A stretch of DNA of 46,316 bases from assembly GCA_014859275.1 (NCBI GenBank), contig JACUUO010000005.1, positions 1-46,316 of the forward strand, given 5' to 3'. Shown here in pieces: positions 24,328 to 38,944 of the stretch. The notes under the pieces were generated by a model. That model saw only the letters and a list, made by a program, of their open reading frames with translations. It was not told where the DNA came from and ran no database searches. The stretch's first letter is position 1, and the number at the start of each line of letters is the position of its first letter. This DNA is from Actinomycetota bacterium. Lineage in GTDB: Bacteria; Actinomycetota; Aquicultoria; Aquicultorales; Aquicultoraceae. A program made the translations under genes and the position numbers.

Positions 24328-24798
24328 ATGGGAATCGAAAAAGTTGTAACGGTAAACAGAAAAGCATATCACGATTTTTATATAGACGAGACTTATGAGG
24401 CGGGGATTGAGCTAAAGGGCGCTGAGGTAAAATCCATCCGTGCGGGTAGAATTAATTTGAAGGATAGCTACGCCCGGGTAGAAGATGGTGAGCTATGGGT
24501 CTTTAATATGCACATAAGCCCATACAGCCACGCGGACAGATATACTCAGCCCGAGCCGGACAGGCCGCGCAAATTGCTCCTTCATAAGAGGGAGATAATG
24601 CGGCTCCTTGGTAAGACGAAAGAGAAAGGGTACACTCTGGTTCCCCTTAAGGTGTACTTCAATGGTCGCGGCAAGGTGAAGGTTGAGATTGGGCTTGCCA
24701 GGGGTAAGCAGCTCTTCGATAAGCGGAAGGTTATAGCGGAGCGTGCCGCAAAGCGTGAGGTGGAGCGGGCCCTTCGTGAGCGCCAGAAGGGCGAATAG
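24328..24798 (+). CDS. smpB: SsrA-binding protein SmpB
   Basis: SmpB binds the tRNA-like end of tmRNA and brings it to stalled ribosomes. The 156-residue product has the standard core: RKAYHDFYIDETYEAGIELK, GAEVKSIRAGRINLKDSYA, HISPYSHADRYTQPEPDRPR, KLLLHKREI and LARGKQLFDKRKVIAERAA, with the basic C-terminal tail (KREVERALRERQKGE) that enters the mRNA channel. ssrA lies 104 nt downstream on the same strand. Confidence 0.96.
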   Translation: MGIEKVVTVNRKAYHDFYIDETYEAGIELKGAEVKSIRAGRINLKDSYARVEDGELWVFNMHISPYSHADRYTQPEPDRPRKLLLHKREIMRLLGKTKEKGYTLVPLKVYFNGRGKVKVEIGLARGKQLFDKRKVIAERAAKREVERALRERQKGE

Positions 24799-24894: not shown

Positions 24895-25231
24895 TTAAAT
24901 ATGGGGGCGACAGGTTTCGACTGAGGTCTGTTTCGGCAGGAGAAGCGGGTCGAGTTCAGGTAACTCGTTAAACTATCTGGAAAAAATAAACGCAGAAGAA
25001 AACTACGCACTAGCCGCTTAATTGCGGCTACGCCAAACTAGAGATCGCCCACATCTCTAGCACGGCGTCATCTTAGTGGGCTGACCTCACCCGGACGCCC
25101 ATAAGGGTAGAGGAAAAACTAATGGGCTAGCGAGCGGTCTATCCAGCCTGTGTGGATGCCAATCGCGAATCTTTAACACAGGATACGCTCGTAGATGCTC
25201 CTGTGGAGATGCCTGAGGACGTGGGTTCGAT

Positions 25232-25666
25232 TCAGAAGAGTCGCCAGTAGCGGTAACGTTACTTGGAAAACAAGGCTTACATCGGTGAAACCTATGTTCG
25301 GAAGAATATGGTAACGCCGAGGGGTGGATCAGAGACAAGAAACAAGAAACAAGAAACAAGAAACAAGAAACAAGAAACAAGAAACAAGATATGAAGGTCT
25401 AGATTGTAAGCAAATTGTCATTGTGAGGTAAGGCCCGATAGGGCTGTAAGTTCTTAAGGCGAAGGAACTCAAAGAAGCAATCTTGTTTCTGAAAGGTGCG
25501 GAGCACCGGTCTGATTTCTGGTATCTGAATTGCCCTGTAGAGACTTATGTGGGAGTCTTACCGATATGGTAAATCTACGGCTCTTACTATACGCCTTGCA
25601 ACCGCTAAGCACTTGCAAAGCGGTTGAAGACATAGTCCAGTCCTTATGGAAACGTAAGGGTAGCTG
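25232..25666 (+). ncRNA. Group I self-splicing intron in the tmRNA T-loop
   Basis: The 435-nt insert ends in G and follows a U, as group I introns do. P1: exon CGAT pairs with GTCG at 25240-25243, placing a U-G pair at the splice site. P4: TCGGTG with CGCCGA. P5/P6: CCTATGTTC with GAATATGG around GGAA. P8: CAACCGCT (25599-25606) with AGCGGTTG (25619-25626), directly followed by AAGACATAGTCC (25627-25638), the S element whose AGTC pairs with GACT at 25542-25545 (P7). P9: CCTTATG with CGTAAGG around a GAAA tetraloop (25642-25659). Between P6 and P7 lies a peripheral region with seven copies of AGAAACA. No protein is encoded inside. Core elements are complete, so splicing is expected. Confidence 0.9.
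25331..25389 (+). repeat. AGAAACA heptamer microsatellite inside the intron
   Basis: AGAGACA, then seven perfect AGAAACA units (25338-25386). The last unit with following bases (AGAAACAAGAT, 25380-25390) is exactly complementary to ATCTTGTTTCT at 25480-25490, so the array can close a peripheral stem. A second, diverged heptad run TCTGATT TCTGGTA TCTGAAT lies at 25510-25530. Confidence 0.85.
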
Positions 25667-25683
25667 TCCCACCGCCTCCACAC

Positions 25684-33780: not shown

Positions 33781-33808
33781 AGGTGAACTATCCATGGATA
33801 GTTCACCT
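33781..33808. terminator. Perfect 28-bp palindrome after tRNA-Gly
   Basis: AGGTGAACTATCCA (33781-33794) followed at once by its reverse complement. It starts three bases after the tRNA. Without a T-tract it may act as a bidirectional 3'-end hairpin. Confidence 0.55.
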
Positions 33809-33886
33809 AGAGATTAGAGATTAGAAAGTAGGATAAATCTGTTTTCTGAAGGGCCGTTAGGCCCGGTCTGATTTCTGGTATCTGAC
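33809..33886. repeat. Heptad arrays between tRNA-Gly and tRNA-Arg
   Basis: AGATTAG AGATTAG AAAGTAG at 33811-33831, then TCTGTTT TCTGAAG (33838-33851) and TCTGATT TCTGGTA TCTGACA (33867-33887), all in a 7-nt rhythm. Confidence 0.6.
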
Positions 33887-33888
33887 AT

Positions 33889-33962
33889 GCGCCCGTAGCT
33901 CAGCTGGACAGAGCATCGGACTTCTAATCCGAGAGTCACAGGTTCGAATCCTGTCGGGCGTG
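33889..33962 (+). tRNA. tRNA-Arg (TCT)
   Basis: Acceptor GCGCCCG/CGGGCGT (first pair G-T); anticodon loop CTTCTAA (TCT); T-arm CACAG GTTCGAATC CTGT; discriminator G. Confidence 0.93.
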
Positions 33963-35915: not shown

Positions 35916-35979
35916 AAAGCCTGATACAAGTTGTAGCTGTCTGATTCAAAGCCTGATACAAGTTGTAGCTGTCTGATTC
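35916..35979 (+). repeat. Perfect 32-bp tandem duplication
   Basis: Two adjacent identical 32-nt units (35916-35947, 35948-35979), each starting AAAGCCTGATACAAGTTGTA. They lie between the 3' ends of DUF4190 (+) and Yip1 (-). Confidence 0.85.
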
Positions 35980-36045
35980 ATCGGGCTTATTGGCTTTGTC
36001 CTTAAAAAGCGTCCTAAAAATAGCAACCACATGTAGTTATTAAAG

Positions 36046-38446: not shown

Positions 38447-38465
38447 CAAAGATAGGACCGAGGTC

Positions 38466-38556
38466 TTTAATTAGAGATTAGAGATTAGAGATTGGATTTG
38501 CCGGATACAGAGGCATCAAGGGGTCTAATCTCTGGTTTCAAGTCTCTAATTTCTTT
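38466..38556. repeat. Inverted pair of heptad arrays between tRNA-His and tRNA-Lys
   Basis: AGATTAG AGATTAG AGATTGG (about 38473-38494) is complementary to the phased run TCTAATC TCTGGTT TCAAGTC TCTAATT (38524-38551), so both arms share a 7-nt period and can fold together. Confidence 0.65.
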
Positions 38557-38559
38557 TTC

Positions 38560-38633
38560 GGGCACTTAGCTCAATTAGGCAGAGCGGCGGACTCTTAATC
38601 CGTAGGTTACAGGTTCGATTCCTGTAGTGCCCA
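38560..38633 (+). tRNA. tRNA-Lys (CTT)
   Basis: Acceptor GGGCACT/AGTGCCC; anticodon loop CTCTTAA (CTT); T-arm ACAGG TTCGATT CCTGT; discriminator A. Confidence 0.95.
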
Positions 38634-38634
38634 C

Positions 38635-38664
38635 AGAAAAACTGCACTTAAGTGCAGTTTTTCT
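38635..38664 (+). terminator. 30-bp perfect palindrome after tRNA-Lys
   Basis: AGAAAAACTGCACTT followed at once by its reverse complement ending in TTTTTCT. Starts two bases after the tRNA. Same outer arms as at 33582 and 39139. Confidence 0.8.
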
Positions 38665-38667
38665 AGG

Positions 38668-38944
38668 AAATAGAGAACAGAATCTAGAAAATAGAAAATA
38701 GATTGAATTATTGTGGGAGATAAGTGAAGGGTGAGGGTTTAAATAACCGCAGACCTTTTCTACTCGGTCTAATCTAAGTAGGGGCGGACCCTGTGTCCAA
38801 ATGTAGGGGCGGACCCTGTGTCCGCCAGTAGTTGCCCGATTTATCGGGCGTATTTATCTCCCTCTGGGAGAGGGTGTAGGGTGAGGGTAAATACGCCCGT
38901 TTCATACCCACATGCTGATAGCTGATAGCTGATAGCTGATAGCT
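38668..38944. repeat. Repeat-rich stretch between tRNA-Lys and tRNA-Leu
   Basis: GAAATAG AGAACAG AATCTAG AAAATAG AAAATAG (38669-38703, 7-nt period); two copies of GTAGGGGCGGACCCTGTGTC (38779, 38802); a CTCCCTCTGGGAGAGGG hairpin unit (38858-38920) repeated at 39240; then GCTGATA four times (38915-38942). Confidence 0.7.

Follow-up and report, generated by a model that had tools for sequence, protein, structure and literature searches.

A group I intron in the tmRNA T-loop of an uncultured Aquicultor-type bacterium carries a dispersed hairpin repeat

The window, that is, the whole stretch of 46,316 nucleotides analysed here, is contig C161 of a 2.83-Mb draft MAG (299 contigs, 98.2% complete; G000 below). 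On its plus strand, which carries all features described here unless otherwise stated, an intact smpB gene (24328-24798) for the tmRNA partner protein (156 amino acids) lies immediately 5' of ssrA (24903-25680), which is followed by a terminator-like GGCCACC...GGTGGCC-T run. The best relatives of this SmpB, at 84-87% identity, are from Candidatus Aquicultor and related MAGs labelled Actinomycetota or Actinomycetes, and the smpB loci retrieved with the window protein (Ca. Aquicultor and others) have ssrA downstream. The host is an uncultured Aquicultor-type bacterium.

The tmRNA model RF00023 matches 24910-25234 with 137.7 bits (gathering cut-off 47), and its alignment stops in the T-loop, at the proposed 5' border of an insert. 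Exon 1 (24903-25231) extends through the 5' side of the T-arm (GTGGG TTCGAT) and contains, at 24989-25021 and inside the tag region of RF00023, the tag reading frame (A)NAEENYALAA followed by a stop; exon 2 (25667-25680) reads T CCCAC CGCCTCC A. The acceptor stem, assigned from the sequence, pairs GGGGGCG (24903-24909) with CGCCUCC (25673-25679), with one G.U. The gene therefore has the tRNA-like domain, tag frame and model score expected of a tmRNA. A second intact ssrA, which according to the preliminary description would have spoken against its reading, is not found by RF00023 in the 98.2% complete genome, where the remaining matches are below the cut-off and mostly tRNA-sized. The tail of the window gene is ACAC; as CCA is not encoded, it must be added after processing. 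Comparison of tails (window 25681; L138, L136, L137, L116, L139 and L140) indicates that, of the seven intron-bearing family members, only G009 encodes CCA in ssrA; the other six lack it, as does intron-less G004, and the intron-less genes of G008 and G010 do encode it.

Between the exons, 435 nucleotides (25232-25666) interrupt the T-loop at position 7, between loop bases 6 and 7. The preliminary description had proposed a group I intron here, with U and G at the borders, the removal of which restores GTGGG-TTCGATT-CCCAC, and these points stand. The base preceding the insert is U25231 and its terminal base G25666; GUGGG UUCGAU (25221-25231) joined to U CCCAC (25667-25672) forms a perfect T-arm, and the joined exons are identical to the empty site of a relative, G004 (L022). 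The ssrA exons of G004 are in turn 98% identical to those of G003 (L021), which has a 236-nt intron at the exact site where G004 has none. Owing to a repeated T at the junction, the empty site by itself fits positions 7 and 8 equally; an insertion at position 8 was rejected because it would give the intron a terminal T in place of G. Insertion at position 2, as in Anaerolineae, is ruled out by the sequence, and a permuted tmRNA was likewise discarded, RF04321 scoring just 29.4 bits and the normal order being intact.

The intron can be folded from P1 to P9. P1 (25228-25243), evident in both sequence and alignment, pairs CGAU/UC, with the splice site after U, to GAGUCG, and its splice-site wobble U25231.G25240 is kept in all eight aligned introns. 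P2 (25244-25266) is capped by a GUAA tetraloop and shows both-side changes in four of its eight pairs, while P3 joins CAAGGC (25271-25276) to GCCUUG (25593-25598), with one double change, A-U to G-C, in G028. P4 (25282-25287/25315-25320) and P5 (25291-25311), which together occupy 25282-25320, are given by our alignment and by that of Rfam; P6 (25321-25535) pairs GGG (25321-25323) with CCC (25533-25535) and encloses a 207-nt L6. The 5' strand of P7, GACU(U)AU (25542-25548), pairs with AUAGUC (25632-25637) in 47 of 48 cells; the Rfam placing of this strand near 25328-25337 was dropped for 25542-25548, which is paired in all relatives. P7.1 (25552-25557/25579-25584), with both-side changes in three of six pairs, and P7.2 (25558-25562/25568-25572) span 25552-25584, and in having them the intron appears IA-like. 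P8 (25599-25626), formed by CAACCGCU and AGCGGUUG, is drawn from the eight-core alignment, and P9 (25642-25659), with a GAAA tetraloop, has both-side changes in five of seven pairs. The helices listed in the preliminary description were right, but P2, P3, P7.1/P7.2 and the 207-nt L6 were missing from it. No long sense frame that could encode a homing endonuclease exists within 25232-25666; the sole listed frame touching the intron (25087-25380, 97 aa) is antisense and overlaps exon 1.

Covariation was assessed in an alignment (A1) of eight intron cores, from which the L6 inserts of G000 and G006 had been excised. Across P1-P9, 93% of cells are paired, a percentage inflated by the fact that the structure was drawn from the same eight sequences; this does not inflate the double-change count, in which 19 pairs are changed on both sides where 6.5 are expected, a number reached in none of 500 shuffles. 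Sliding the partners by one to three columns lowers pairing to 32-43%. By helix, the eight sequences have 100% of cells paired in P3 and P4, 97.9% in P7 and 96% in P8. The covariance search suggested by the preliminary description thus succeeds for the tmRNA but falls short for the intron: over 25217-25659, RF00028 (Intron_gpI) scores 32.2 bits (E = 2.9e-6, 841 bases searched), less than the 50 required by its gathering score. The alignment nonetheless spans the intron end to end, with P3-P8, P7/J8-7 and P9 in common, the model differing in that it lacks P7.1/P7.2 and a large L6. Since the compact 236-nt homologue of G003 is likewise below the cut-off (39.1 bits, E = 8.9e-9), the size of L6 is not the only factor in the score, which reflects how well RF00028 fits this subtype; the gathering score is a curated threshold of one model and no defining biological feature. 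Borders, core, covariation and empty-site relatives together confirm, at the level of comparative sequence analysis, a group I intron in the tmRNA T-loop.

The intron is present in ssrA of 8 of the 36 genomes of the class: seven of the 11 genomes in the window's family (G000-G003, G005, G006 and G009), and G028. The sister genomes G004, G007, G008 and G010 lack it. Exons and intron cores have similar identities for most family pairs (84.1 and 84.0% respectively between G000 and G005; 82.9 and 84.1% between G000 and G001), and such divergence in step is as expected for an old, mostly inherited and maintained intron. As G004 falls inside the intron-bearing genus in the exon tree and has the CCA-less tail in common with it, the simplest reading of what is a small tree is a precise loss of the intron in G004. 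Sister genomes with and without the intron constitute a well-resolved family that should be useful for studying intron gain and loss in a quality-control RNA.

Introns of this kind had been described to us as rare, reported in a few bacteria and phages, a view that can no longer be upheld. In its main text, a 2025 survey reports 883 unique intron-bearing tmRNA genes from 21 phyla, with four T-loop subsites of which position 7 is used in most, and with a homing endonuclease lacking in 95.9% of the set (PMC11915505); that main text names neither Actinomycetota nor Aquicultor. On these counts the window intron is of a known kind, less rare than thought. As far as the survey text describes them, its introns share with ours the site, the -1 U, the terminal G, the P1-P9 layout, the lack of a homing endonuclease and a single ssrA, and ours differs in having nested repeats that make up a 207-nt L6 (PMC11915505).

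Comparison of L6 across relatives gives lengths of 5 nt in G001-G003, 19 in G028, 26 in G009, 34 in G005, 116 in G006 and 207 in the window, and the extra sequence in the last two is one repeat in the same loop. Almost half of the window intron is a copy of this dispersed hairpin repeat, a point that the preliminary description had overlooked. The copy, including its expanded 5' arm, occupies 25331-25526 (covariance model R1, match at 25355-25526, 96.8 bits; also supported by BLAST copies). The expansion is a tandem array of AGAAACA x 8.4 (25331-25389), identified by tandem-repeat analysis, and nested within the copy, at 25412-25478, is a second repeat of the TTGTCATTGTGAGG...GAAGCAATCTT type, with matches in C89, C48 and others, which belongs to a different family and is missing from the copy in the G006 intron (L020). 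The first repeat has an architecture of three helices, with AGAAACNAG-type arms, an inner hairpin around GAAGGTCTAGA, a variable GC-rich hairpin and a 3' arm GGTCTGATTTCTGGTTTCTGA; pairing in helix 2 is kept through substitutions (e.g. CG/AT/TG and AT/GC/GT). The L6 region is predicted to fold as an extension of P6 (-56.5 kcal/mol, z = -2.96). Other short tandem repeats in the window lie at 35916-35980 and 38662-38944, the last three near a tRNA cluster.

Searching with a strict pattern for the L6 hairpin recovers the window copy alone, so a covariance model was needed; R1 was built from seven copies, the seeds of which were found by similarity to the intron. At E <= 0.01 it identifies 14 places in the window's genome. 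The 23S rRNA holds three of them and the 23S-5S spacer a fourth; four separate neighbouring tRNAs, and another directly abuts a tRNA. Spacers of ribosomal-protein operons account for three (rpsL-rpsG, rplX-rplE and before rpsQ), and the remaining two lie upstream of a gene for a CooC-like ATPase and in the tmRNA intron, the gene names at the ribosomal-protein and CooC-like sites being read from sequence and not from a database. Apart from the intron copy, the places that fall within the window itself are one between tRNA-Gly and tRNA-Arg (33798-33890, 49.5 bits) and a weak copy between tRNA-His and tRNA-Lys (38462-38561, 36.8 bits, E = 1e-4). All 14 are in sense orientation as read from local context. 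The 23S rRNA gene (G000:C225, 13354-14960) has three repeat-derived insertions, which align to E. coli positions 130-157, 534-559 and 1158-1181, that is, to helices 9, 25 and 45.

Among relatives, R1 gives 34 hits in G006, 23 in G008, 15 in G007, 11 in G010, five in G011, three in G021 and one each in G005 and G029, some of them being one site called on both strands; since the first-look filter leaves many weak candidates unscored (103-150 were scored per genome), copy numbers are lower bounds. In the remaining relatives, among them G001-G004 and G009, R1 gave no hit. The 23S rRNA of G008 (G008:C32, 19900-21866) has four repeat-derived insertions, at helices 9, 25 and 45 and between E. coli 1399 and 1600; in G009, without R1 matches, the 23S alignment is free of such gaps at helices 9 and 25 and has about 120 extra nucleotides at helix 45. 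Sites in G006 include the S10-L3, S19-L22, L29-S17, S8-L6 and S7-EF-G spacers and a position right before L5 (names again from sequence), as well as places between tRNAs and one within an FMN riboswitch; the copy in this riboswitch (L197:628-899, G006:C12) apparently sits in a variable hairpin. Where the direction of transcription is clear, 49 copies in relatives are sense and two antisense (p = 6e-13), a value that assumes independence, which orthologous copies lack, and that includes some crude ORF-based directions. Copies often stop about 10 nt 5' of the next start codon.

The repeat is palindromic and dispersed, and is likely a MITE-like hairpin that transcripts tolerate or from which it is processed. 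No Rfam family matches it at gathering thresholds, and a limited search of the open-access literature produced no description joining it with RNase III, intervening sequences (IVS) or ERIC/Correia-type palindromes, so that, within Rfam and that search, it is apparently undescribed.

The origin of 23S rRNA IVS is unsettled. Helices 9, 25 and 45 are the most common IVS sites, and the insertions seen here resemble IVS in being long stem-loops at these helices (PMC4990558); they differ in belonging to a family also found in tRNA, mRNA, riboswitch and intron loops. ERIC and Correia (NEMIS) elements are palindromic MITEs, with RNase III cutting reported for the latter, and the review text makes no mention of rRNA or tRNA sites (PMC10969869). 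Our repeat is like them a short palindrome in tens of copies at transcribed intergenic places, yet it is almost solely sense, occurs within rRNA and a group I intron as well, and has shown no sequence link to them. Because the three classical IVS sites hold one dispersed, nearly always sense repeat family, the idea that IVS come from a mobile hairpin becomes directly testable, and it is the repeat, more than the intron, that could change views on the origin of 23S IVS.

Taken together, we consider it very probable that what interrupts the main tmRNA T-loop site is a group I intron that owes its length to a passenger repeat in L6. Splicing would follow the standard two-step group I pathway: the pre-tmRNA would fold the intron core, exogenous guanosine bound in P7 would attack after U25231, held as U.G in P1, and the freed exon would attack after G25666, so that GUGGGUUCGAU becomes linked to UCCCAC and the T-arm is restored, whereupon tRNA nucleotidyltransferase would add CCA. 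With one ssrA in the genome, functional tmRNA should need this splicing. L6 may have grown by insertion of the sense palindromic repeat, expansion of its AGAAACA array and insertion of the second repeat; as the repeat continues P6 outward, the catalytic core is spared. The same family supplies the insertions in 23S helices 9, 25 and 45 and fills tRNA and ribosomal-protein operon spacers. Its persistence most likely stems from insertion into, or replacement of, terminal loops and spacers, in which it folds on itself. RNase III, the gene for which (rnc) is present in the window's genome, may cut the self-folded repeat, and cutting of L6 might slow splicing.

Other readings of the intron are far less attractive. 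The nested repeats of the 207-nt L6 and the sub-threshold RF00028 score could be signs of decay, with folding broken, the T-loop permanently interrupted and the tmRNA dead, but this is improbable given that every core helix and the P1 U.G are intact and covarying, that intron and exon evolve at similar rates, that neighbouring smpB is intact, and that tmRNA is, according to the survey text, conserved in nearly all bacteria (PMC11915505). A draft MAG and an internal tandem repeat invite suspicion that the 435 bases are an assembly artefact or chimaera; with a homologous core at the same base in seven related genomes, and the same repeat in the same loop of the G006 intron, we find this scarcely credible. 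Group I chemistry requires guanosine and Mg2+, and the preliminary description had suggested that ribosome rescue could be coupled to the levels of either. Such a regulatory switch is a guess, and a very improbable one: the intron is missing from the sister genomes G004, G007, G008 and G010, and cellular GTP would normally be saturating for such introns.

With respect to the repeat, the L6 hairpin might be an RNA-processing site, for example one where RNase III enters, that has been domesticated throughout stable-RNA and ribosomal operons and helps the intron or the pre-tmRNA to mature. The orientation bias (49 to two in relatives, 14 of 14 in the window's genome), the copies flush between tRNAs or about 10 nt ahead of start codons, the substitutions that keep pairs in helix 2 and the variable hairpin, and the presence of RNase III all fit such a role. 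Genomes without a match to the repeat include G001-G004 and G009, however, of which G001-G003 and G009 keep the same intron with a short L6, and sister genomes differ in copies as they would for mobile repeats; we regard domestication as possible but on the unlikely side. Tentatively, and with a probability that we put well below even, a single sense hairpin family spreads through abundant transcripts by settling in their terminal loops and spacers (in 23S helices 9/25/45, tRNA clusters, ribosomal-protein operons, an FMN riboswitch and the tmRNA intron), either by movement at the RNA level, meaning insertion into RNA followed by reverse transcription and recombination, or as a domesticated processing signal. 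If true, this would tie the origin of 23S IVS directly to a dispersed genomic repeat.

Further introns were observed outside the family. The same T-loop site holds a group I intron in a tmRNA gene on the minus strand of L238 (about 7322-6654), a 66.5-kb viral contig (IMGVR_UViG_3300042387_002461). Matches from a pattern scan of viral contigs mostly resemble chance hits in coding sequence; at L229:505, an intron-like 3' end precedes AATCCCGTCATCTCC, which may mark a tRNA gene split within its T-loop. Additional tmRNA-type introns, with CCTCCACCA tails, occur elsewhere in the phylum (L253 and L254, from G066 and G037), and another member of the class (L255, G018:C87) carries two group I intron S-elements in an apparent 23S rRNA gene.
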